Origin: Opeltia flavorubescens
Taxonomy: Eukaryota; Ascomycota; Lecanoromycetes; Teloschistales; Teloschistaceae
Reading direction: 5' to 3'
DNA length: 64,000 nt
NCBI GenBank assembly: GCA_000442125.1
Contig: KE546985.1
Span: 614,377-678,376, forward strand
Shown here: positions 11,828-64,000 of the stretch, one piece after another
Layout of the letters: every line of letters starts with the position of its first letter
How positions within the stretch are numbered: the stretch's first letter is position 1
Translations under genes and position numbers: made by a program
The notes under the pieces: model-generated
Database searches by the model: none
Seen by the model: only the letters and a program-made list of their open reading frames with translations
Told to the model about the DNA's origin: nothing

Positions 11828-14389
11828 ATGCCTCCCGCTAAGATGGATTCTACGGACACGATTGCTGAGATGGCAGCGGAGATGCAGGCTTTACGGCTCA
11901 AATTGCTGGACGCGACGCATGGACAAGAGGAGGCTGAGCGCAAACAAATGGAAGCGGAGCAAGGGAAAGAGGAGGAGAAGCGGGGACGAGAGGAGGCAGA
12001 GCGTCAACGAGAGGAGGCAGAACGTCAACGAGAGGAGGCAGACCGTCAACAAGAGGAAAACAATCGGCAAATCCGTCCTACAACGCTCTACGAAATGCTT
12101 GGGTTCTGCCACCAGTTCATTGACAGTAAATTTGTCGTAGAGACAGACCCTGCATTGACGACGCNTGGGAAAATCACCGATGTCAAGGGCAAGCATTACC
12201 CTCATGTTCTCGAGCCTTGGGAAGATTTCGAGGAGCTTCAGGCCATCAGCTTTGGTATCATCCAATCACTCTTTCATCCTGCCGATGCCGAACCCATCCG
12301 TGCTTTCAAATCACGGCACTTTATCGAGGAAACCGGCAAGACATGGATACAAAAGATTGCCAGTGAACCAGATCTTGTATCGTTCCAGCGTCCCATGGTC
12401 GAAAACTTTGTTCGCGATGTCCTCTCATATCTAATGCCAGCATCAGATGTCACTTTTGACAATACTACGCACGCTCTTGGCCAAAACACAGACAGTCAAG
12501 ATCCAGGGAGCAATCCAGAACTCGACCAAGATACATCCATCGCTGCAGCCTCAGATCAATACCCTACTCGCTCGAAAAAGCTTCCACCAGTACCCCAACC
12601 AGGAGGCATTGATCAGATTTGCGTTTTTCGGGATATCAACGGCGAAACAGAATTGTTCATGGTGGAAGAATACAAGGCCCCGCATAAAGTAAGCAAGGAA
12701 GCTCTGCGCGCTGCCCTACACTCGCGGGATTCTATCCATGTTGGGGAGATTAAAGACCAGGAAACGATCCCGACAGACCCTGACAAGAATTTCCTCTATA
12801 ACTCGAAGCTTCTTGTCTGCATGGCGGCAACACAAACGTATGATTACCTCATACGTGGTGGGTGTACACATGGGTGTATAGTAACGGGTGAATCAATCAT
12901 CTTTCTAAGAATCAACGAAGAGGATTCCACTCGTCTGTCATATTATCTCACCGAACCCTTTCTGGATGCAGCAGCCAATGTGGAATTTGACTATTCCAAA
13001 ACCGTGATTGCTCGGCTCACCAGCTTTTCTCTCATGGCTTTCGAGTCGCCGCCAAAAGATCAGAAGTGGATCCGAGACGCTAAGGACATTGCGGACAAGT
13101 GGATCATCACCGAGAAACTTTGGAAGGAGACGCCTAAGAAGTTGCAAGCATTGATGGAGAAAAATGATCGGAAAGATACCTCCTACAGTCCACCCAAAGG
13201 ATTAGTCCCCGGCGATAGATTATCACCTGTCAAGACTCGCCAATTCCTCAAACGTTTGCAGTCTTTAGGATGCAAGACTCCGACGAAGGGTTTCAAGTAT
13301 GAACAGGATGACTTCGACCCTGATCAGCAGGGCCACGATGACCTAGCAACGCCGACGAAACCATCGAGCTCGAAAACCTGCCAAGGAAAACAAGTACAGC
13401 AAAGCAGCCGAGGATCTGGTGCCGCTGGAAAGCAACGACAGCGCAAATATTGTACCCAAGCGTGTCTCCTAGGCCTGGCGCAAAGACGTACGATTGACGA
13501 GAGCTGCCCCAACGCCGGTCTACATCCAAGAGGCAAAAGAGGCGACACGCATTCTTTGACAAAGCCTGTCCTCCGCCAACTTCTCCGTCAACAGCTTGTT
13601 AGAACCATGGACGAAGATTGTGAGAATCTGAGGCTCAAGGGCGCTCGAGGCATGCTATTCAAGCTATCTCTTGCGGAACATGGGTACACGTTCGTTGGGA
13701 AGGCGACCATCGATCGATTCATTCCTTATCTACAACACGAGGGTCGCGTCTACCATCAGCTGCGTAAGTTCCAGGGTCAATTGATCCCCGTCTGCCTTGG
13801 AAACGTCGATCTTGAGATACCCTGGTTTGGAATTGGTGTGGAACTCGTGCACATGCTCCTCCTATCGTACGGCGGCAAAGACCTCTGCTGTCACCCCATC
13901 GAGGATCAATGGCAACAAGCCGCAGATTTCGAGACCATCATAGCTCCTTTCGGTGTTACGCATGAAGATATGCGATCAAATAACATGCTCTGGAACGAAG
14001 AACTTAGGCGGGTGCTTTTCATCGACTTTGAGCTCTCGACTCTCAAGCCCCAGCCGAGATCGCCAAAGAGCAAAGCATCAAGGACCATGTCGCCAAAGGC
14101 CAAACCCGCGAAGCTTAAGACGAATGCCAAGACTGCGAAATCCAAGGGTCTTGTCAAGTCCAGAGCACTCCAGGAACTTTCAATTAATCAAGTCTCTACG
14201 TTACCGAAGAAGTCTGCAGCTCCAACGGCAGACGCAGAGAAGTCTTTATCGCCAGTGAAAACTACAGTATTGGGTGTACCACCGTCGAAGATTACAGGAC
14301 TAGGGATCTCGCCAACCAAGAAAACCTCAGCATCGGCCCAAGAGGCGCATGATCAAGAATCATCGATCCCCGACTTCATTTATATTTAG
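11828..14389 (+). CDS. Coiled-coil protein with C-terminal kinase-like domain (853 aa), intact
   Basis: Starts in a good context (cgtcgcaATGcc) and is uninterrupted to TAG. Residues about 14-80 are a charged coiled coil, with the heptad REEAERQ repeated at 54-74. Residues 90-580 form an unannotated region ending in a Cys motif, YCTQACLLGL (541-550) and DESCPN (C560), which I associate with a widespread fungal family of hypothetical proteins. The C-terminus is kinase-like: ARGMLFKLSLAEHGYTFVGK with candidate ATP-binding K625, HEDMRSNNMLW (H712, D714, N719) as catalytic loop, and DFE (D733) in place of DFG. A basic tail (about 740-845) carries repeated Ser-Pro-Lys motifs (SPKSK, SPKAK, SPVKT, SPTKK), resembling DNA-binding or nuclear tails. 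Database entries for this family are often labelled metalloprotease without support; I see no HEXXH. Codon 113 contains an ambiguous base (12,165). No intron is needed. It is the only long intact gene in a RIP-damaged neighbourhood. Confidence 0.85.
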   Translation: MPPAKMDSTDTIAEMAAEMQALRLKLLDATHGQEEAERKQMEAEQGKEEEKRGREEAERQREEAERQREEADRQQEENNRQIRPTTLYEMLGFCHQFIDSKFVVETDPALTTXGKITDVKGKHYPHVLEPWEDFEELQAISFGIIQSLFHPADAEPIRAFKSRHFIEETGKTWIQKIASEPDLVSFQRPMVENFVRDVLSYLMPASDVTFDNTTHALGQNTDSQDPGSNPELDQDTSIAAASDQYPTRSKKLPPVPQPGGIDQICVFRDINGETELFMVEEYKAPHKVSKEALRAALHSRDSIHVGEIKDQETIPTDPDKNFLYNSKLLVCMAATQTYDYLIRGGCTHGCIVTGESIIFLRINEEDSTRLSYYLTEPFLDAAANVEFDYSKTVIARLTSFSLMAFESPPKDQKWIRDAKDIADKWIITEKLWKETPKKLQALMEKNDRKDTSYSPPKGLVPGDRLSPVKTRQFLKRLQSLGCKTPTKGFKYEQDDFDPDQQGHDDLATPTKPSSSKTCQGKQVQQSSRGSGAAGKQRQRKYCTQACLLGLAQRRTIDESCPNAGLHPRGKRGDTHSLTKPVLRQLLRQQLVRTMDEDCENLRLKGARGMLFKLSLAEHGYTFVGKATIDRFIPYLQHEGRVYHQLRKFQGQLIPVCLGNVDLEIPWFGIGVELVHMLLLSYGGKDLCCHPIEDQWQQAADFETIIAPFGVTHEDMRSNNMLWNEELRRVLFIDFELSTLKPQPRSPKSKASRTMSPKAKPAKLKTNAKTAKSKGLVKSRALQELSINQVSTLPKKSAAPTADAEKSLSPVKTTVLGVPPSKITGLGISPTKKTSASAQEAHDQESSIPDFIYI
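11987..12049 (+). repeat. 21-bp in-frame repeat, three copies, encoding the heptad REEAERQ
   Basis: Three adjacent 21-bp units differ at a few bases (AERQ, AERQ, ADRQ). Because 21 bp equals seven codons, copy-number change would lengthen the coiled coil by whole heptads without breaking the frame. Confidence 0.85.
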
Positions 14390-47644: not shown

Positions 47645-47825
47645 TAATAATAATTATAACTTTAATAAAAATTTTAATAATAATTTTATTAAAGGTTCCG
47701 ATAATAATTTTAATAAAAATTTTAATAATAACTTTAATAAAAGTTCTAATAATAATTTTAATAAAAATTCTAATAATAATTTTAATAAAAATTCTAATAA
47801 TAATTTTAATAAAAGTTCTAATAGT
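47645..47825. repeat. 24-bp tandem array, about 7 copies
   Basis: Units of AATAATAATTTTAATAAAAA plus four bases repeat with an exact 24-bp period. The period is a multiple of three and in one frame reads NNNFNKNS per unit. Before RIP the A-rich codons would have been G-richer, so this is plausibly the relic of a protein with an 8-residue repeat. No adjoining open frame remains to prove it. Confidence 0.7.
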
Positions 47826-48572
47826 ATAATAAATATAAATACTAAATTTTTTTCTACTATCGATTACTATAATATAAATTTTAATATTTAAATTCCTTTT
47901 TTAATATTATTTTTATTATATTATATTTTTAAATATTTTCGATACTAAATTAATATAGTTTTAAATACTACGGCTTAATATATATATTTATATAGTAAAT
48001 AAAACTTTATTAANNTTTTAAATAGTAATTAATAGNNGTAAANATTNTATTATCTAGTTATTTATAATAGCGCGATATATTAACTAGTTATAATATAAAA
48101 TATTATAAATTTATTCTTTAAAGATTAAAAAAGAGATTTAATTATACTACTATTTTTATATTTTATAGAAATATTTAAATAGGGTACTATAAAATAAAAT
48201 TTTTTTAATAATAAATAAAAAGTTTTTTTTACTAGCTAGTTATAACTCTATAAACTTGACTTTTAAATTTTAGAATATAGATATTTAGAATAGATATTTA
48301 TATTAAATATTTAAATTTAATAGAAATAAAATATTAATAATTTTATCGCGTATATTAAAAATCTAATTATTTATAAAACGGTCTTTAAATTTATATATTA
48401 TTTATTATATAATTAATATATTATAAAAAATTAAAAAATAATTATTAATAGAATTAAATCTAACTACTATAAATACGTCCNGCTTAATTATAATATCGAT
48501 AATAGTAGCTAGAGTTATAATATATATATATTATTTTTTATAATATATATACTATAATATATTTAGAAAAAG

Positions 48573-48612
48573 AATAGAAAAAAAAAGAAAAAAAAAANAA
48601 AAAAAAAAAAAA
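48573..48612. repeat. Purine/A-rich low-complexity tract
   Basis: Long A runs broken by single Gs and one N (48,598). It is simple sequence within the RIP block and no function can be assigned. Confidence 0.7.
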
Positions 48613-51456
48613 TAATCCTTTTATTTTATATAATAAATAAATAATTTAAATTAATAAAATTATTATTCTAGTTTTAAAGGCTATTTATAGTATTAAAATT
48701 TTTAGTTAATATACCGCGATATAGAATAATATATTTATTAAAACGTATATTTATAATAAATACCGGTAAATAAAAAAATAACCTATTAATCTAATCTATT
48801 CTATTTTAATTTTCCGCTTTAAAGTATTTTAATATAAAGTATATATATTAATTAACTAGCGGTTAGAGTTTTAATAATTTATTTTAATATTATATATTTA
48901 TAGTTTTAAATTATTTATTATTATTAATTTAATAAATTTTAATTAAATATAAATAGATTATTTTATATATTTAAATTTACTTTTTAATACTTTTTTTAAA
49001 ATTATACCTTTTAAAAAAACCTATTTTAATTTTAGTTTTAACAATTTTTTTATTTATAATAAAATTATATTATTATTTAAGAAATTTTATTTATAAAAAT
49101 AAATTAAAGTTTTTAATAATTTTTAAAATATAGTATAATATTATAAAATCGATTTTTATTTATAAATATTAACCCGTAATACGGTTTTAATATTAATAAA
49201 ACTAGTAAAAAATAATTAACTCTATTATTTATAAAAAATCGTATATTTTAAAATATATAATATTATTTTTAATTTATTCTATTTTTTTATTAAAAATATT
49301 TTTCTTTTTATTAATTTTCTATTTAAAGCTTTTAATTTTATTTAAACTAAAATTAATTAATAAAACGCTATTAATAAATAAAAAAATAATATTTATTAAA
49401 ATTTATATAATCCTAATACCTCTATATAAACTATATAAACTAAAGTTTATATTATTAAATAGTTTTTTATAATAAAAACTAGATTTAATAAAGCTTTTTA
49501 TAATATAATAAAATAAATTAAACTTTTTAAATATTTAAATAAACTTATATTTAATAAAATAATAAAATTTTTTAAAATCTATTAAAAATTTTAAATTATT
49601 TTTATTATATTTAAAATTCTAGACTTTTTATTTTAAAACGTTAAATATTAGTAATTTCTAATAATTTTTAAAAAAACCAATACTAACCTCTTTATTATAA
49701 CCGCCGCTACTAACTATTAACTTTTTTAGCGCTTAAATATTTAAAATATTTTTAAATTTATCTATATTTAAATTAATTAATAGTTTTTTTTTTTAAAAAT
49801 TTTTATTATTAAGTTTAAATTAGTTTATAGGTAAAAAACTATATTTTTTATTATATAAAAATATTTTAATATTATTATTTAAGTTTTTACCTATATTTTA
49901 CGTATAATATATAAAAGCTAAACTTTATAAAAATTCGAAGCTTTATAAAAAAAAAGCTGGTAATAAATAGTTAAAATAAAATACGTAGGGTTATTTATAT
50001 AGCGAGATTCCGTTTATTTTAATATTTAGAAAATTAAGCGGTATAGCTTTAATTATTAATAAATCCTATACGATTTTAGTTTAATATTATTATTTTAGGT
50101 TTTCTACTAGAAATATTTTTCTATTTTTAAAATCGAAATAATTCTAGATTTAAATATAATTAACGCGTTTTAATAATACTTTTAAATATAATAAAATATT
50201 ATTAATATTATTTTATAATAAAATAATAAGCTTATTAAATTATAAAAAATAGTTTTATAAATATAAATAGTATAAAATAGATCTATAATATATTTAAAGA
50301 TTTATTAGAATTTATAAAACTTTACTACTAAATTAATTATTTAAATATATTTAAAATAAATATAAAATATTTTTAAATATTATATTAAAAAAAATTTCCT
50401 TTTAAATAAAATAAAAAATATTAAAAAAATATTTTATAATATACTATTTTAGAATTAAAGTAACGGTTTTAAAAGTTTATTATTTTATTTTATATTTAAA
50501 ATTATTAAATTCGAACTCTAAATTACTTATTTTTATAAATTAAAAGATTTAAATAATAAAAGCTTTAAAATTTTTAAAATTTAATCGGTTTTTTTATTAT
50601 AAATAAATTATATATAAGAATTATTTAATTTCGAAAATCGTATCACAGGTAATTTATATAAACTTATATAAAAATAAAAATAGTATTATCTATATATATA
50701 ATTTATATTTATTATTATTTAAGATAAACTAACTTTAAAATATATATAAAAGTGATTTAAATATTTAATCTAGTTAATTAATTATTATTTTTTAATTTTT
50801 TTCTATTATAATAATAATCAAATTTATAGCGAGTATAAAGCTTTAATTTTTATTAGGCTAGTAGTAAAAGCTAAAGCTAGAAGTAATTAATTTTAACTAT
50901 ATTATATTAACTGGATTATTTTTATAATTTTAATAAAATTATTCTAGCTTTTTAAATATAGATTAAAAGGTTATAAATTCTATTTATATTCTTTTAAATC
51001 CGTCCTTTATTTAAATAGTTACTATTTTTTTAAAAAATAATATAAAAGATTTAGTAAAAATATTAAAAAGGCGTTATAAATCGCCGCGATAAAGGTATTT
51101 AATATTTATAATATACTTATTAAAGAAATTAAAAAAAAATATATTTTTAAAATCGTTATAATTATAGTTTTTATATATAAATAAATAAAAAAAATAATTA
51201 AATATATATATTCAATTAAATAATTTATAAAATTAAATAAAATATAAAAATTTATAACTTTATATAATATTTATAAAGATAGAAATAATAAAAGAAGCGA
51301 TATTAATAATAAAAAAATATTAAAATTATTTTTTAAATTTAAAGATTAGATATTATAAAATTAAAAGAATCGGGTAATATATAAAAGATTTATATAAACA
51401 ACCGTATTTATTTATAAACGACTTTAAATTTTTAATAATTATTAAATAATTATACC

Positions 51457-51478
51457 GAATTTATTTATAAATAAATTT
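51457..51478. repeat. Member of a dispersed 22-bp palindrome family
   Basis: GAATTTATTTATAAATAAAT plus TT is a near-perfect palindrome preceded by CC. Related copies occur at 46,721-46,742, 52,751-52,770 (AACTTATTTATAAATAAGTT, perfect), 59,848-59,869, 61,056-61,077 and three to four times in the 37-bp array at 54.5 kb. Sharing of flanking bases such as CCGAA suggests a true repeat family rather than chance in AT-rich DNA. Confidence 0.5.
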
Positions 51479-54469
51479 AATATTTTATTAAATTTATTTA
51501 ATAACTAGAATATTAATTTCTATTATTATATAATAAAGTATTTAATAATATTTATTTTAATATTAATTTATTTAAATTAATAAAGTTATAATAGTAATTT
51601 TAGTTTTAATAATTTATTAATAGCTATATTAAAGGGTTTATTAAAAAATAGAAATTTAATCTTCTATATAGTATTATTATATTACCGTTATATTAAAAAA
51701 TAAAAAAGCTCTATTTCTTTAAACTATAATTTCTAGTATAAAAATTTTATTAACTTTTCTATAATTTTAATATTATATTAGCGGGTTTTAATAAAAGCGA
51801 TTTTTTAAATTAAATATTAATTAAGTTATTTAATTAAAAACTTTTATAGTTAAAATATTCCTCGTTTATTTTTTTAAATACTCTTTATTACTATATCTTT
51901 TTATAATATCTAGATCTAGTAAAATTTTATAATTTTTTCGTTTAATTTAATTTTAAAGTAATAAAATTTATTAAAATTTAAATATTAGTTTTTTTTAGAT
52001 TATTATTAAAAGATTTATTTTTTATTAAATTTAAAATATTTAAATACTTTTATATAAACTAGTTTCGATATTATATTAATCTATTTAAATTATAAATACT
52101 ATTAAATTTATTAGTAAACGTTTAAATATTATATTTTAACTATTTATTTTATTAAATTTATTTATAAGCGAGTTAATTTTATATATTTTTTTTTTATTAT
52201 TTTTATTTTATATTATTTTATTTTATTTTATTTTATTTTTTTATTAATAAATATTTATTAATAAAGGAAATTATATTATATAACTTTTACTAATAATTAT
52301 TAGGTATATAAATTAATATAAATATAAAATTATTTTTATAAGCTTTAAATTTCTAACTTTTTCTATATTATATTTTATATTCTTTTTCTTTTATAAATAT
52401 TCGGTTTTATTTACTACTTTATATTTTTATTTTTAATTAGATTTTATAACGCGATTTAATATTTTTAAAAGCTTTATTATATTATACTATAATTATTTAT
52501 TATTTATAGTAGTATATTATTTTATTTAAAGCTTTATTTAAAGGTTTAATATATTATTAATTAATATTTATAATATAATAGAATAATTTATACCGATTTT
52601 AACTATTTATTATATTAATTTTATAATTTTTATAATAACTTTAATACTTTTAACTTTTATTATATCTTTTTATTTATTAATTAACCTTTATTCTATAATA
52701 TATTATAATTTAAAAGATAAATTTTAACTAAATTTAATTATAGAAAAGTTAACTTATTTATAAATAAGTTCAGCGGCTTTTTATTTTTTATTTTATTTTT
52801 TTTTTTTTTTTTCTAGTTAGCCTACTAATAAATTCGATAGGATATCTAAATTTTTAGTATTTAACTTATTTATAAGTAAATACTATTAATTAGAGCTTTT
52901 ATAACGACTAGAAAATATATTAAAAAATATAAATTAAATAGGACGTTAGAACCGATTATAAAATTAGAGAAAGTTACTATAAAAGCCGATTTTTATTATA
53001 TTATAGATAAAAAAGTTTAGATTATCTAGAAAAACCTCTTTAAAATATTAGCTATTAATTCTAATTAGCTTAATAATATTATATAGCTCGTTTTTTACCT
53101 TAAAATTTTAAATATTTTTAATATTTATAGATTTTTATATAATTTTATTATTTAACCTATTTTTATTAAATATTTTAAAAAGTATATTAAAACCTTTAAT
53201 AAAATAAATAACTAGATTTTTATAAATATATTCCTTATATTTAATTTTAAAAAATATATTTTTTAATTATTTATTTTAACGCTTCTAAATAGTAATATTA
53301 TTAATATTTATAATTATTAAAAATAGGTAATTATTTATTATATAATTTTAGAAATTTTTAATATTTAATTTAATTTAATATAGGATTATATTAATAATAA
53401 ACTAGCTATTAAATATTAGAGGTTTATTATAAAAAATTAGACTCGCGGCTATATTTTACTATAATTTATTTAGAAAAAAAAAAAAATATTATAATTTTAA
53501 ATTTTATTCCTTTTAATATTTATTAAATTTTAGCCGTTTTTATAATATTTATAACTTTTAATAATTAAAAGCTCGATTTAAAGATATTATAAAATATATT
53601 AAATATTATAATTAAAAAAAATATACTAATAAAATTTATTAAAATAATATAATAGCTAGAAAATAAAAAATAATTAAACCCGCGACTTAAATTAAAAATA
53701 AATTAAAAAAAAAAAATAAAATATACAAACGATTTTATAAGCTATTTAATTATTTTTAATTTAAATAAAATTTAATTCTATAATTTTATAAAATATAATT
53801 ATAAAAATAATCTATAGGTTTTAATATTAATTTAATAGTAGGCTATTTTAATAAAAATCTAGTATAATTTTAAATATATAAAAATTATTTATTTTAAAAA
53901 TTTTTTTTAAATTATTTTATTTATAGTAGAAATATAATAGGAAAAATAAAAATAGNNNNNNNTTATTAATAAANTTACGGAGGTTATTATTAAAAATATT
54001 ATTTAAAAAAACTTTAATAATTATTTTAAAAAAAAAAACTTTTTTAATTTATTATTTAAAAATTTATTTATTTTTTAANTTNTATTTAATAATTTATATA
54101 ATATAATATATACTAGTATAAATATTTATAATATAATACNNNTTTTATATTTAAAAGTCTATAAATTTCTAGATTTAAATTTTATTATATTAATTTTTAA
54201 ATATAATATTTAAAAGTCTTTTTATATATAATAAATCTAATATATAATTTAAAAAGCGAATATTAAATAAGTTTTTAAAGATATTATTTTAACGGATAAT
54301 ATAAGTTTAAAAAAAATATTATTATTATTATTCTATATAGTATACGCGGTAGAGAGTATATAATTAGAATAGAAAAAAAGAAATAATAGTAAATAAATCT
54401 TTTAACCGTAATTATTTTTTTATTCTATTTTATTATCTAGCTAGTTTAATAATAAATAGTTATTTTATT

Positions 54470-54612
54470 AAATTTACCTATAAACGAGTAGCTTTAATAG
54501 TAGTCCTATTTATTTATAGATAAATTTAGTAAAATACTAGTTTTATTTATTTATAAATAAGTTTAATAAAGTATTAATTTTATTTATTTATAAATAAGTT
54601 TAATAAAATAAT
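54470..54612. repeat. 37-bp tandem array, four copies, each with a palindrome
   Basis: TTATAAATAAGTT recurs at 54,551 and 54,588, with diverged copies at 54,514 (TTATAGATAAATT) and 54,478 (CTATAAACGAG), all spaced by 37 bp. The leftmost copy keeps C and G where the others have T and A, so the array shows a RIP gradient and hints at the unmutated unit. Confidence 0.65.
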
Positions 54613-57600
54613 AATCGATTTTTTTATAAATATTATTAATTTAATTATTATTTTTTTTAAAAATAAAATTATATTTTTTAAAATTATTTAATATATAAAA
54701 GAAGTAATATTCTAGTAATATAAATAAAAGATAGATATTTATAAATAAAATTAATTAAAATATTTTTATAATTAATATTTTCGATATTATTTTTAATAAT
54801 AATATTAATATAGCCGATAAAATATTTAAAAAAAAAATATTTATTATTAAAATATTAAATTAGTTTTTATATTTTTTTAATTAAATTTTTTTTAATATAA
54901 TTTAATTTTATTTTAAATTTTTTAACTCGCGTTTTAAAATTATTAGAAAAAGAATAATTTAATTTATTATCGATTTTTAAGCGTATAAATATTATAAAAT
55001 AGTATTATTAATTAATAAAATCAGAAATAGATAATACCGCCTAACTTTTATTATTTATAAAAATTTAAATAGTTAAATATAATATAAAAAGCTTTTAAAA
55101 ATTTCTATTTTAATATAATATTTTTATCTATTTTATAATAGCTTTAATTTATAGTTAAATTTAGATTATTATAAAATTATATTAAAAACCGATATTATAA
55201 ACTTTTTTAAAAATATTTAATAATTATTCGATATTTTATATATTTTAAAATAGATATATTTTATTATTTATAATATTTAAATAAACTAATTTCTAGATAT
55301 AAATTCGAATTTAGATTTTTATAAATAGCGGTATTTTAAATTAAGCGATAAAAATAATATAAAAGAAATAAATAAGCTAGTAGAATTAGATATAAAATAT
55401 TAATTATTTTATTTAAATATTTTTAAGCGTATATAAATAGCTAAAATCTTTTTTATTAATATTCTATATAACTAGTATATTAATCTATTATATAGTATTT
55501 ATAATAAAGTATATTATTTTTAAAATATTTTAATTTAAATATATAAATTAATTAATTAATTAAATATTTAATATTATAATTTAATAACCGCTACTTCTAT
55601 ATTTAATAAAAAGGCTGATTTTTAAAATTTATTATATTTTATTTATTTAAATAATATTGAGGAAAAAAATAAATATTTAGATTTAAAAGAATATAAATAA
55701 ATTAAAAAAGTATTATATAATAAAAAACTATCTATTATATAATTAATTAAATATTAGTACTTTTTTTATTTATAAACCTTTTATAATATCGCGAAATTTT
55801 AATAAAGCTAGTAGTTAGAATTTAATACTATAATAGATCTATTTTTATCGCTTTTTTATATAATATATCTATAATAAATATTTATATTTACTATTAATAA
55901 TATTAATAAGCGTATTATTATTATTAGCGAATTTATCTTTTATAATAAATAGATAACTTTAGAATTTAAAAAAAGGCTATTAAAAATATTTAAATATATA
56001 TTTATCTATATTTTTTATATTTAAAACTTTAATAAAGGCGTTAATAAAAAAATAAAAAAANNTAAATATAATATATTTAAATATCGNTATTTAAATTATA
56101 TAATATTCGCTTTTTTAATAAAAAAGTTTATTATAAATTTAAAAAATAGTATTATAGATATAAATATATAATATATAATAAATAATTATAATATAATTAA
56201 CTTTTTTTTTATAATTAGAACTAATATTTAATACTTTATTTTTTAAATAAATATATAGTCTATTTTCTATAGAATTTATTTATAATCGAATTTAATAGAA
56301 TTAAAATTTTTAAAATTTAAAATTAACTTTATTATAAGCTAGAGTTAATATTTATAATTATATAATATATCTATTAGTTAAATTAAAAGCTATTATTATT
56401 TTTATTTATAATTTCTATTATATTTATTAAAGGAAATTTTTAATCTATTATAAATAGCCGGTTATATAATAGTTAATTAAAAGTTTTTTAATAAATTTAA
56501 AGTTTTTTATTATATTAATTTAGTTAATATATAAATAATATAATAAAAATATTATTATAAATAAATTTAACGACTTTAATAATAATATTATAGAATTAAT
56601 TATTAGTATATATATTTCCGCGATTTTTAAAAACTTTTAATTTAAAAAATCGGATATTATATTTCTAAATATATATATTAATATATAATTTATTATTTAG
56701 ATATTAGGCCGTATATTAAAGCTTAAATAAAAAAAAAAATATACTTTTTATATTATAATAATATTATATTTATATTATTAAATATTAAATACTTTTATAA
56801 TTTAGAAAATATATTTAATTATTATTAAATAAACTAATATTAAAGTTCTTTAAACTATAATAAATAAAATCCGCGTTTATATATTAAAAGAAGATTTTAA
56901 AAATATTTTATAAAATTTTATTAGTAAATATATATTAATATAATTAAAAATTTTTTATTATAATTTATTTAAATAATATTATTTTTAATTATATTAAAAA
57001 TTAATTTAAAATATAATAATAAAAAATTTATTATTAAAAAAAAAGAAATTTATAAAAAATAAAAAAATTAAAAAATTTTTAAATTAATTAATTCGGGAAA
57101 AAAATTTTTATAATATTTAAATATATTAGGATATAGATTAGATTATTATTAAAAATTTATTATTTTTATTTATATATTTTCTAGTATTAAAATATTAAAA
57201 TTAATATTAAATAAAATCTATTAAATATTTAATATAAAAAATAATCTAGTTATTTATTAAAAAGAAGAGTATATAATTAATATTATTAGTAATTTCTAAT
57301 TATTAAAAAATTATTAAGGGGAAAATAGATTTATTAATTTTATATTATATAGGTTTTTTAAATTAATTAACCGATTTTAAAAAAAAAAAAAAAATATATA
57401 AAAAAAAAAAAAATTAAATTAAATAAATATTTTAATAAATATTAATAATAAAATCTAGTATTTTTAATAAAAACTATAATTAATATTTAATAAATAATAA
57501 TATTTATAATAAAAATAAAACGTATAAAAGTTAAATAAAAGAAAATAAAAAATAAAAAAAATTTAAAAATAGTTAAAACTATTAAAAAAATATAAATAAA

Positions 57601-57839
57601 AAAAAATTATATAATAATTATAGCTATTAAAAAGATTTAAAAAAATATATTAAAATAGTAAAATTTTTAAACTAAAATATATAATTAACTAGCTCTTTAT
57701 AATTTAAAAAAAAATTAGTAAAATTAATTTAAAAAAAATAAATATTTTATTATAAATTTTATTATAAATTTATATTAATAANTTTAATAAAAAATTTTTA
57801 AAGTTATTTTTATTTTTAAAATTTAAAAAATCCGATAAT

Positions 57840-57915
57840 TTTAAAAAATTTAAAAAATTTAAAATATTTAAAAAATTTAAAATATTTAAAAAATTTAAAA
57901 AATTTAAAAAGTTTA
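57840..57915. repeat. 9-bp tandem array (AAAAAATTT type)
   Basis: TTTA recurs every 9 bp for about eight units. Its mirror copy lies at 63,010-63,085. Regularly spaced A-tracts can bend DNA, although 9 bp is off the 10.5-bp helical repeat, so any net bend would be a shallow superhelix. Confidence 0.7.
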
Positions 57916-59538
57916 ATAATTTTAATAAATTTTTTAAATTATTTAAATAATTTTTTTAAACGGTTTTAAATATATATAGCTTTATTATTTATTTAAATAT
58001 AAAAAAATATAAATTAATTAATATAAATATTAAAAAATATTAATTAATTTTAATTATACTACTATTTACTTTTAGTAAAAAATTTAGTTTTTTTTATTTT
58101 TTTTAATATTTATTTTTAAATATTAATATAGATTTATTATTTTTAAAATACTTATATTATAATAAAAAATATTAAAATTTAAATTTTTTTATATTTATAT
58201 TTATTTATAAATAAATATAATAAAAGTTTTAAAAAATAATATTAATAAAAATTTATATAATATAGATTATTTTTATTTAATTTATTTAGCGATATTATTT
58301 TATTTTTTTTATATTTATATTAACTATTTTATTTAAAGGTTATTTAATTATTATATTATTAATAAATATTTTTATATATTTAAATTAAATTTTTTTTTTT
58401 AATAATATAGCTAGTATTAATATTATTTTTTTTATACCTGTTTTTAATATAATTTTTATATAAAAAAATTATTATTATATATTTATTAAATCGCGTTTAT
58501 ATATTAATACTTTTTTAATAATATTATTCGAATAAATATTTATTTTAAATAAATTTAATATTTAAATAATTTAATAAATATTATTTATTAATTTTATTAT
58601 TAATTATTTAAAATTTTTAAAAAGTATTATTATATTAAATAGGCCTTTTAAAATTTATTCTATTTAATAAATATTATTAAATAGGGATAAAGCTAATTAG
58701 TACTTTATATAAAATATTAAATTATATAATTATACTATATTTAATAGTATTATAAATAGATTTTAATTATATATAAATAGATTTTTTTTAAATTTTTTTA
58801 TAACTATTTTATTTAATACTTTTTTTTTTTTTATTTTATTTAATTTTAAATAAAATTTATTATTATATAATTTAAAAGCTTTCTACTTATTTTATAATTA
58901 TTTATAATTTATATTATTTTTATTTATATATTTTATTTATATTAATATAATTCGTTTATTATAAAATTTTAATTATATTATTTATAATAGTTTAACTACT
59001 AATATTAATAATAAATTATAAATTACTATTATTTATAGTTAATATTATTATATAGTTATATATAATAAGCGTTATTATATATAATTATATAGTATATAGT
59101 ATAAGTATTATTATATTCGATTCTTATTTATTAGAAGTAATTAGTTTTAAAAAATTAAAAATTATTAATAAAAGGTTACTTATTTAATTATATTAATAAT
59201 TTAATATAGTTATTATTTAATATTAATAAAAAACCTTTTATTAATTAGTAAGCTATTTAAAAATTATAAATAAAAAATTTAAATAATAAAAAATTAAAAA
59301 AGATTTAAATTATAAAGGTTTTTTTATTATTAAAATTTTTTAAAAAACGGTATAAATTAATATTAAAGGCGATTTAATAAAATTTCTAGAATTTATATAT
59401 TTTTTTAAATAAAGTTATTTTTTTTTTTAATTATTATTTTAAATAATATATAGTAAAAATTATAAAAAATTATTTTTTTTTTTAATTAATTTTTAGGTTT
59501 AATTATTAATATTAATAGTATTATTAAAATAATTTTTA

Positions 59539-59711
59539 TATATTTATTAGTTTATTATATAAATATTTTCCGCGGTATTTTTATATCCGCCTATTTATTA
59601 TATAAATATTTTTTATAGTTTTATTATATCTATTAGTATATTAAATAGTTATTTTTTATAGATTTTTTATATCTATTAATATATTATATAGATATTATTT
59701 ATAAATAAAAT
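59539..59711. repeat. 43-bp tandem array, four copies, left arm
   Basis: Units begin at 59,539, 59,582, 59,625 and 59,668 with TATAT followed by C/T-rich CTATTAG-like sequence, exactly 43 bp apart. Two units keep CCGC or CCGCGG where the others have TTATA-like sequence, so copies differ mainly by transitions. Confidence 0.75.
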
Positions 59712-60430
59712 TATATATTTTTATATATAAAAATCTATAGATAGATATAATAAAAATATTATATTAAGATATTTTAAATACTAATTTTATATATTAATTT
59801 AAATTTATAATTATTTTTTTTAAAATTAATAAATTATAGTTATTTTTAAATTTATTTATAAATAAATTCGGTTTAATATTTATATTTAATTTTTAAAAAT
59901 ATTATTTTTTTAGATTTTAATTAATTTTTAAAGTTATTTCTTTTAATTAAAAACTATAGATATATTATAAAATTTTATTAATATTAGCTTTTATAAAATT
60001 CGGTTTTATAATTATTAGTTTAAATTTAAAGGTTATAAAAATATTATAAAATCTAATTAAAGTCCTATTATATAATATTTAACTTTTTAAAAAATAATTT
60101 TATTACTAGCTAGAATAATCTATTTTAATTATAAAGGATATTCTAATTTTATATATATATTAAAATATAATTTTATAATTATAGTTAAAAGGTTTAAAAT
60201 TAAATAATTTATAATTATAATTATAGTTTTTTTAATTCGTTACTTTTAATAATAATTTTTATATATAATTTAGGATTTTAAATTTAGTTTTAGATTATAT
60301 TAAAACCTATATTAGTATATAATATATAATTATTTATACTCGCCTATAATTAAGTTCGATTATTTTTTAATTTTTATTTTTTATATTAATCGCGACTATA
60401 GGATTATAATAAATATTATTAAATTCTATA

Positions 60431-60494
60431 ACCGGTATTTTTAGTATTTAAATAATTCTACCGAAAAGTTAGTATCTATATTATTTTTATTTAA
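60431..60494. other. 64-bp asymmetric centre of the giant palindrome
   Basis: Outside this segment the two strands match; inside it they do not. It contains CCGG (60,432-60,435) and CCG (60,461-60,463). A short non-repeated centre is what is expected when an inverted duplication forms by fold-back or template switching around a small spacer. Confidence 0.75.
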
Positions 60495-61213
60495 TATAGA
60501 ATTTAATAATATTTATTATAACTTTATAGTCGCGATTAGTATAAAAAATAAAAATTAAAAAATAATCGAATTTAATTATAGGCGAGTATAAATAATTATA
60601 TATTATATACTAATATAGGTTTTAATATAATCTAAAGTTAAATTTAAAGTTCTAGATTATATATAAAAATTATTATTAAAAGTAATAAACCGAAAAAATT
60701 ATAATTATAATTATAAATTATTTAATCTTAAATTTTTTAATTATAATTATAGAATTATATTTTAATATATATATAAAATTAGAATATCTTTTATAATTAA
60801 AATAGATTATTTTAGTTAGTAATAGAATTATTTTTTAAAAAGTTAAATATTATATAATAGGATTTTAATTAAATTTTATAATATTTTTATAGCTTTTAAA
60901 TTTAAATTAATAATTATAAAACCGAATTTTATAAAAATTAATATTAATAAAATTCTATAATATATTTATAGCTTTTAATTAGAGGAAATAATTTTAAAAA
61001 TTAATTAAAATTTAAAAAAGTAATATTTTTAAAAATTAGATATAAATATTAAACCGAATTTATTTATAAATAAATTTAAAAATAATTATAATTTATTAAT
61101 TTTAAAAAAAATAATTATAAATTTAGATTAATATATAAAATTAGTATTTAAAATACTTTAATATAATATTTTTATTATATTTATCTATAGATTTTTATAT
61201 ATAAAAATATATA

Positions 61214-61386
61214 ATTTTATTTATAGATAATATCTATATAGTATATTAATAAATATAAAAAATCTATAAAAAATAATTATTTAATATACTAGTAGATATA
61301 ATAAAATTATAAAAAATATTTATATAGTAAACGGGCGGATATAAAAATATTACGGAAAATATCTATATAATAAACTAGTAGATATA
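61214..61386. repeat. 43-bp tandem array, four copies, right arm
   Basis: Exact mirror position of the left-arm array with the same copy number. ACGGGCGGAT (61,330-61,339) and the TACGG near 61,351 keep more G and C than neighbouring units. Confidence 0.75.
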
Positions 61387-63009
61387 TAAAAACTATTTTA
61401 ATAATATTATTAGTATTAATAATTAAATTTAAAGGTTAGTTAAAAAAAAAAATAATTTTTTATAATTTTTATTATATATTATTTAAAGTAGTAATTAAAA
61501 AAAAAAATAATTTTATTTAAAAAAATATATAAATTCTAGAAATTCTATTAAATCGCTTTTAATATTAATTTATACTATTTTTTAAAAGATTTTAATAATA
61601 AAAAAACTTTTATAATTTAAATCTTTTTTAATTTTTTATTATTTAAATTTTTTACCTATAATTTTTAAATAATTTACTAGCTAATAAAAGGTTTTTTATT
61701 AATATTAAATAATAATTATATTAAATTATTAATATAATTAAATAAATAACCTTTTATTAATAATTTTTAATTTTTTAAAACTAATTACTTTTAATAAATA
61801 AAAATTAAATATAATAATATTTATACTATATACTATATAATTATATATAATAACGTTTATTATATATAGCTATATAGTAACGTTAACTATAGATAATAGT
61901 AGTTTATAATTTATTATTAATATTAGTAGTTAAATTATTATAAATAATATAATTAAAATTTTATAATAAATAAACTATATTAATATAAATAAAGTATATA
62001 AATAAAAATAATATAAATTATAAATAATTATAAAACGGGTAGAAAACTTTTAAATTATATAGTAATAGATTTTATTTAAAATTAAATAGAATAAAAAAAA
62101 AAAAAATATTAAATAAAATAATTATAAAAAAATTTAAAAAGAGCCTATTTATATATAACTAAAATTTATTTATAATATTATTAAATATAGTATAATTATA
62201 TAATTTAGCGTTTTATATAAAGTACTAGTTAGCTTTATTTTTATTTAATAATATTTATTAAACGGAATAAATTTTAAAGGGCTTATTTAATATAATAATA
62301 TTTTTTAAAAATTTTAAATAGCTAGTAATAAAATTAATAAATAATATTTATTAAATTATTTAAATATTAAATTTATTTAAAATAAATATTTATTTAAATA
62401 ATATTATTAAAGGAATATTAATATATAAACGCGATTTAATAAATATATAATAATAGTTTTTTTATATAAAAATTATATTAAAAATAGGTATAAAAAAAAT
62501 AATATTAATATTAATTATATTATTAAAAAAGAAAATTTAATTTAAATATATAAAAGTATTTATTAATAATATAATAATTAAATAACTTTTAAATAAAATA
62601 ATTAATATAAATATAAAAAGAATAAAATAATATTACTAAATAAATTAAATAAAAATAATTTATATTATATAGATTTTTATCGATATTATTTTTTAAAATT
62701 TTTATTATATTTATTTATAAATAAATATAGATATAAAAAAATTTAAATTTTAATATTTTTTATTATAATATAAATATTTTAAAAGTAATAGGTTTATATT
62801 AATATTTAAAAATAAATATTAAAAGAAATAAAAAGAATTAAATTTTTTATTAAAAATAAATAATAATATAATTAAAATTAATTAATATTTTTTAATATTT
62901 ATATTAATTAATTTATATTTTTTTATATTTAAATAAATAATAAAGCTATATATATTTAAAATTATCTAAAAAAATTATTTAAATAATTTAAAAAATTTAT
63001 TAAAATTAT

Positions 63010-63085
63010 TAAACTTTTTAAATTTTTTAAATTTTTTAAATATTTTAAATTTTTTAAATATTTTAAATTTTTTAAATTTTTTAAA
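63010..63085. repeat. 9-bp tandem array, mirror copy
   Basis: AAATTTTTT-type units with a 9-bp period at the mirror position of 57,840-57,915, with the same length and order of variant units. Confidence 0.7.
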
Positions 63086-64000
63086 ATTATTAGATTTTTT
63101 AAATTTTAAAAATAAAAATAACTTTAAAAATTTTTTATTAAANTTATTAATATAAATTTATAATAAAATTTATAATAAAATATTTATTTTTTTTAAATTA
63201 ATTTTACTAATTTTTTTTTAAATTATAAGGAGCTAGTTAATTATATATTTTAATTTAAAAATTTTACCGTTTTAATATATTTTTTTAAGCCTTTTTAATA
63301 GTTATAGTTATTATATAATTTTTTTTTATTTATATTTTTTTAATAGTTTTAGTTATTTTTAAATTTTTTTTATTTTTTATTTTTTTTTATTTAATTTTTA
63401 CGCGCTTTATTTTTATTATAAATATTATTATTTATTAAATATTAATTATAATTTTTATTAAAAGTACTAGATTTTATTATTAATATTTATTAAAATATTT
63501 ATTTAATTTAATTTTTTTTTTTTTTATATATTTTTTTTTTTTTTTTAAAATCGATTAATTAATTTAGGGAATTTATATAATATAAAATTAATAAATTTAT
63601 TTTTTTTTTAATAATTTTTTAATAATTAGAAATTATTAATAGTATTAACTATATACTTTTTTTTTTAATAAATAACTAGATTATTTTTTATATTAAATAT
63701 TTAATAGGTTTTATTTAATATTAATTTTAATATTTTAATATTAAAAAGTATATAAATAAAAATAATAAATTTTTAATAATAATCTAATTTATATTTTAAT
63801 ATATTTAAATATTATAAAAATTTTTTTTTTAAATTAATTAATTTAAAAATTTTTTAATTTTTTTATTTTTTATAAATTTCTTTTTTTTTAATAATAAATT
63901 TTTTATTATTATATTTTAAATTAATTTTTAATATAATTAAAAATAATATTATTTAAATAAATTATAATAAAAAATTTTTAATTATATTAATATATATTTA

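Follow-up and report, generated by a model that had tools for sequence, protein, structure and literature searches.

A palindrome at the end of contig C21

The window analysed here is a stretch of 64,000 nucleotides of Opeltia flavorubescens, positions 614377-678376 of contig C21 (KE546985.1), and as the contig is 678376 bases long, the end of the window is also the end of the contig. It closes with a large palindrome, in which a left arm (56925-60430, + strand) running toward the expected telomere side is followed by an asymmetric 64-bp spacer (60431-60494, - strand) and by a right arm (60495-64000, - strand), an inverted copy cut by the contig end. The arms are copies of a subtelomeric repeat that is homologous to sequences at seven other contig ends and is heavily altered by repeat-induced point mutation (RIP). 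From the sequence we think it rather likely that one chromosome end was really duplicated in inverted form, by sister fusion or fold-back, and that RIP afterwards acted on both arms. The likelihoods attached to this and other readings are judgements and were not computed.

An earlier note on this DNA had described mirror-image arms of at least 3.5 kb about position 60,462.5, all of whose differences were C/T or G/A and which showed no net insertion or deletion even in A runs and four-copy tandem arrays, and each of these descriptions was borne out. The axis at 60462.5 is exact, and an independent repeat finder reports one inverted pair with the arm coordinates given above, of 3506 nt, 94% complementary and 64 nt apart. 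Direct mirror comparison gives 239 mismatches over 3538 mirrored positions, 12 of them transversions, whereas alignment of the arms proper, the check that the note had suggested, gives 219 transitions, no transversions and no gap columns over 3505 compared sites, with no excess of either indels or transversions; because the arms proper hold no transversion, all 12 must lie within the 64-bp centre. As there is no gap between the arms, A/T runs of up to 16 bases are equal in length in both, and a four-copy 43-bp array is present in each (59529-59703 and 61221-61391). Two features had not been remarked upon: the asymmetry of the centre, and the truncation of the right arm at position 64000 by the contig end, which makes 3506 nt a lower bound on arm length.

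Mirror symmetry was also sought, with 400-base arms set 60 bases off centre, in 16 further stretches lying at contig ends or close to them. These covered five of the six other ends in which telomere repeats were not seen; none of the stretches contained a similar fold-back, and no centre exceeded 75%. Chance or low-complexity symmetry is rejected, since AT-rich DNA gives about 65% matches even to reversed controls, far below 94%.

A subtelomeric repeat at other contig ends

With a 463-base query taken from the arm, matches of 410-431 bases and 77-86% identity were obtained at seven other contig ends, and below these come many matches at 65-75% that represent the background of AT-rich DNA. A 3-kb query taken from the copy on C2 recovers the same seven ends together with the two C21 arms, all eight of the eight candidates having been scored. 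There is one copy per end at C1, C2, C4, C12, C13, C18 and C19, all in the same direction. The contig end beyond each copy bears telomere repeats (at C12 only some two units are seen) and lies between 2.1 and 13.6 kb away. All seven are single and none is folded back, so the palindrome is rejected as a fixed feature of the repeat. The repeat is of considerable length, the alignment of C1 with C4 covering 19 kb. C21 runs colinear with C18 from position 47661 up to the junction, and with C2 from 49076, so that an inner part of the repeat (47661-56924, + strand) lies in the window without a mirror copy inside the contig. Over the arm region G+C content is 33% in C18 and 37% in C2, the least mutated copies, and 6.5-6.8% in the C21 arms.

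The signature of RIP

Compared pairwise over about 3.5 kb, the nine copies differ by 219-1098 transitions and 0-5 transversions; the transition-only pattern that the earlier note had drawn attention to is therefore real, but is common to all nine copies rather than peculiar to the palindrome. CpA, the context preferred by RIP in Neurospora, is the most-lost context in every copy, the fraction lost ranging from 0.31 (C2) to 1.00 (both C21 arms). The two arms together contain no CpA and a single TpG, where shuffled sequences lead one to expect about 112 and about 106 per arm, respectively. These copies combine C-to-T and G-to-A changes in duplicated DNA, rare transversions and CpA as the preferred target, with TpA accumulating, as expected of RIP. 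As a process, RIP requires the RID or Dim-2 methyltransferase and passage through the sexual cycle.

The CpG sites are particularly informative. CG occurs in one arm or both at 33 places. Both arms have it at 14 of these; at the remaining 19 one arm has CG and its partner TA, and TG or CA occurs at none. Likewise, where C2 has CG, the other copies mostly have TA, with a few cases of TG or CA. A first hit would convert CpG into CpA on one strand, and this CpA would be hit in turn to give TA. Miscalls confined to one strand would instead show as TG or CA, and the arms must therefore be two different real sequences whose divergence is genuine RIP.

Relationship of the arms and timing of RIP

Two changes are common to the arms and absent from all seven other copies, namely a transversion at alignment column 43 and the loss of one base from a T run at column 1909, and the 219 differences between the arms compare with 568-1098 transitions between an arm and any other copy. 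By these characters the two arms look like sister copies. Among 1503 ancestral C/G columns, 239 are kept in the left arm, 228 in the right, and 124 in both. A capture-recapture estimate, which assumes independent losses, puts the share of ancestral C/G remaining at the time of doubling at about 0.29, and survival since then at 0.54 (left) and 0.52 (right); in one 350-bp bin (2100-2450 from the spacer) a single site is common to both arms. Copies C4, C12 and C1 keep 667, 641 and 698 of the 1503, which on this estimate would make the C21 end already the most mutated when it doubled, and most of its AT-richness older than the palindrome. The proposal in the earlier note that an inverted duplication was followed by separate RIP of each arm is thus retained, with the amendment that the repeat at the C21 end is, judging from these counts, one already mutated by RIP before doubling.

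Strand bias and the palindrome centre

The losses that distinguish the arms fall unequally on the two strands. The left arm alone lost + strand C at 75 sites and + strand G at 29; for the right arm alone the figures are 85 and 30. The pooled bias of 160 to 59 gives p=5.9e-12 without adjustment for sites or for linked CpG changes, and the site-adjusted values are p=0.0027 for the left arm and p=3.8e-5 for the right. The bias is strongest at CpT, where 0.63 of sites on the + strand are lost in both arms and 0.29 and 0.35 on the other strand; at CpC only the right arm shows a bias (0.58 versus 0.06, with small numbers), and CpG is unbiased (0.39-0.42 lost on both strands), as the two-step route to TA predicts. 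Losses private to each of the other copies stand at 77:74 (C4), 53:51 (C1), 92:79 (C12), 53:39 (C19), 20:13 (C13), 18:6 (C18) and 5:6 (C2), indicating that a strong strand bias is not general.

The bias extends leftward beyond the visible left arm to about 52 kb, with p=2.9e-4 for 51.6-56.6 kb and p=0.77 for 47.6-51.6 kb; for CpT, three bins within 52-56.9 kb give p=0.012, 0.012 and 0.017, and 58.7-60.4 kb gives 0.0008. This excess of + strand C loss over G loss marks a possible extension of the left arm with approximate bounds of 51600-56924 (+ strand), and may hint at arms longer than the contig shows. A second regularity concerns the centre, since C/G retention within 350 bp of the spacer (60081-60844) is 0.30 and 0.28 in the two arms and 0.06-0.22 in full bins farther out, roughly a twofold difference from the remainder of the arms, the first bin comprising only 129 sites and hence small numbers. 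Copies C4, C12 and C1 have no clear trend of that kind, and RIP pairing could have been hindered close to the turn of the palindrome.

One round of RIP in Neurospora is reported to act on a single strand in 91.9% of mutation clusters (PMC7296669). As a tentative idea, which we regard as possible but by no means probable, RIP treated this large inverted repeat as one physical unit, acting on the same strand through both arms and perhaps as far as about 52 kb, and sparing a few hundred bases at the centre where two duplexes may fail to pair. The loss pattern would then also gauge the unseen length of the palindrome, at about 8 kb per arm.

Coding content and other features of the window

No complete open reading frame of at least 120 aa is present in L019 or L015, and a scan gives a longest open frame of 122 aa in 16 kb of C18 and of 107 aa in 15 kb of C2. 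A separate listing shows open frames of 205 and 286 aa beside two SNF2 remnants, which the scan does not reproduce. Pfam was searched with L019 in all six frames, L022 in its three + frames and L023 in its three - frames and gave only two weak SNF2 matches, and solved-structure searches with two pieces of L019 gave no relevant match. The SNF2 matches in the less mutated copies (C18:7741-7932, E=4.3e-4; C18:9103-9186, E=0.023; C2:2400227-2400340, E=0.023) are all below the Pfam cut-off and point toward the telomere; carried over by hand through the alignment, they would place an SNF2-like helicase remnant at approximately 54200-55700 (+ strand, positions rounded) in the window. Helicase_C has no match at any copy of the repeat; RecQ models were not searched.

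Subtelomeric repeats containing telomere-linked helicases, of RecQ type, are known in fungi. In these a helicase-like gene is repeated beside telomeres and read toward them, as would be the case here; a difference is that the match here is weak, to an SNF2 domain and unaccompanied by Helicase_C. Elsewhere in the assembly, a broken Helicase_C match with three stops (C5:1949944-1950126, E=1.2e-4) lies about 1.6 kb from the telomeric end of C5 and reads as another helicase remnant near a telomere. No coding function is visible in the palindrome itself; most likely it is a scar left by the repair of an end, over which genome defence has since written.

The window as a whole changes in character from left to right. 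An 853-aa open frame (11828-14389, + strand) lies in a gene-like part, and positions 23001-64000 form a 40-kb AT-rich right end. The density of CpA plus TpG is 113 per kb at 1-23 kb and drops toward the contig end, by way of 5.7 and 1.7, to 0.14 per kb.

Origin of the palindrome

The spacer extends the right arm, and its - strand is colinear with all seven single copies in junction alignments; the sequence then switches to the left arm at a TATA microhomology (60427-60430, + strand, with its mirror partner at 60495-60498) that becomes TATAG, five bases, with copies C2 and C18. The arm breakpoints are symmetric to within 64 bp, and the spacer is short. Such agreement would fit sister fusion or fold-back, whereas joining of unrelated ends would rarely produce it, and the arms also look like sisters. 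The orientation of the spacer would be uninformative, as a symmetric dicentric may break so as to leave either half.

The inverted duplication of one chromosome end that we favour can be set out as a series of events. A subtelomeric repeat is present over at least eight contig ends and is RIP-mutated in all of them. The C21 end would then have lost its telomere and broken, or been trimmed, inside the repeat, after which either the ends of two sisters were fused or the end turned back on itself to be copied. Either route would give an inverted duplication whose 64-bp spacer lies off centre and whose junction shows 4-5 bases of homology. The dicentric product would have broken again and the end been re-capped at a point beyond the contig. 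RIP, whose mutations are seen in both arms, has removed about half of the C/G remaining in each, the losses falling mainly on one physical strand running through both arms, and would have done so last, in later sexual cycles.

Several points weigh against this reconstruction. The palindrome coincides with a contig end that has no telomere, the kind of place where misassemblies gather, and a continuation of the right arm was not found at the five telomere-less ends sampled (the C7 end was not among them). The junction homology is weak, a random junction giving at least four matching bases with probability 0.094. The shared deletion lies in a T run and could reflect recurrent slippage or systematic error, and the capture-recapture estimate ranges from 0.17 to 0.89 between full 350-bp bins. 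With regard to strand, CpT bias is not significant within 56.9-58.7 kb alone (p=0.13); among the six other copies with more than 20 private losses C18 alone is equally biased (18:6); and the same direction of bias in both arms is a one-in-two chance event that does not prove linkage.

The strongest competitor, which we consider unlikely though it deserves serious attention, is misassembly: a fold-back or chimeric read turned the draft round at the contig end, and the right arm was then built or polished from an unassembled, closely related subtelomere, such that both arms are real but not joined. Telomere repeats are found at 37 of 46 contig ends; seven ends, including this one, lack them and two read N, so that a further copy could be unassembled. 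The assembly does leave joins unresolved: the last 4000 bases of C20 (751050-755049) are identical over all 4000 bases compared to C22:5495-9494, near the start of that contig, and the two contigs are probably parts of a single chromosome that the assembly failed to join. Mixing of reads is also suggested by the undetermined bases. The aligned part contains 25 Ns (48014-57782 and 63143), of which 23 fall where copy C18 keeps C or G, a run of seven coinciding with an all-G/C stretch, and the N at 57782 (left arm, where other copies have C or T) is the exact mirror of that at 63143 in the right arm. These Ns resemble mixed-read calls from cross-mapped, less mutated copies, and together with the mirrored pair they make it probable that reads of different copies were mixed locally. 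Fold-back reads are reported to make up about 0.55-0.6% of nanopore genomic data and virtually none of PacBio HiFi data (PMC12870357). Against misassembly, the missing copy would have to be the closest relative of the arm, carrying the same transversion and deletion, and would by chance have to show a mirrored strand bias of similar size, and the five other telomere-less ends scanned have no fold-back.

A true end-to-end fusion of two different chromosome ends, in which the right arm leads into another chromosome, is quite improbable. On this side C21 has no telomere, and one partner end is missing from several contigs, as such a fusion might suggest; however, two unrelated breaks would rarely agree within 64 bp, and the arms resemble sisters. 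Continuation of the right arm into the sampled starts of C22 or C23 or the sampled ends of C1, C3 or C20 was rejected, no match being clearly above the reversed-sequence control (244 bits for the best, C1, versus 202 bits). Taken together, sister fusion or fold-back and fusion with another chromosome make a real palindrome of some origin likely, a little more so than the favoured origin by itself. A pure sequencing artefact, in which a hairpin-type read of a single locus acquired strand-specific C-to-T miscalls, predicts the + strand C-to-T excess seen in both arms but is scarcely credible and is rejected, given 219 RIP-type differences, the change of all 19 divergent CpGs on both strands from CG to TA, the 59 of 219 losses on the other strand, and the absence of any indel between the arms, long A/T runs included.

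Comparison with known systems and implications

The earlier note had also called palindromes of this size unusual in fungi, which is a fair statement, albeit one with a precedent. In Zymoseptoria tritici, a large palindrome located at 500-550 kb of chromosome 14, in gene-poor inserted sequence and with Copia remnants on its flanks, is described, and sister-chromatid fusion is proposed to start breakage-fusion-bridge cycles (PMC3681731). That case is similar in that a filamentous fungus has both a large palindrome and a proposed fusion of sister chromatids. It differs in that the palindrome described here is found at a contig end, within a subtelomeric repeat common to several ends, and each of its arms was heavily and separately mutated by RIP. 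Palindromes that follow telomere loss in budding yeast (PAL survivors) are attributed to synthesis induced by short inverted repeats, with a 12-bp AT-rich inverted sequence in the hotspot described (PMC4981268). They likewise are chromosome-end inverted duplications whose arms are separated by a short inverted sequence, but here that sequence is only 4-5 bases and the telomere loss is a presumed one. RIP of duplications in Neurospora crassa is comparable in its C-to-T changes over duplicated DNA and its one-strand clusters per round (PMC7296669, PMC4858203). The C21 arms are distinguished from that material by a strand preference that keeps the same physical direction across the two inverted arms and by the fall of arm G+C to 6.5-6.8%.

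Palindromes and sister fusion are themselves already known, and what differs here is the combination of a chromosome-end palindrome with heavy, separate and strand-coherent RIP of its arms. Budding yeast is not known to have RIP. No RIP-mutated chromosome-end palindrome was found among the titles and abstract openings of the open-licence papers listed, which does not prove that none exists; on RIP in connection with palindromes and subtelomeres, the listing gave a paper on Verticillium centromeres.

For fungi in which RIP is active, the CG-to-TA test offers a simple means of deciding whether the arms of a fold-back assembly differ through genuine RIP or through read error. Should the joint prove real, the C21 end would record a succession of events in the history of one fungal chromosome end: spread of a repeat, RIP, telomere loss, inverted duplication, and RIP again. 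The arms would then also serve as internal replicates with a partly known starting point, from which the strand, context and centre effects of RIP could be read in a natural sequence.

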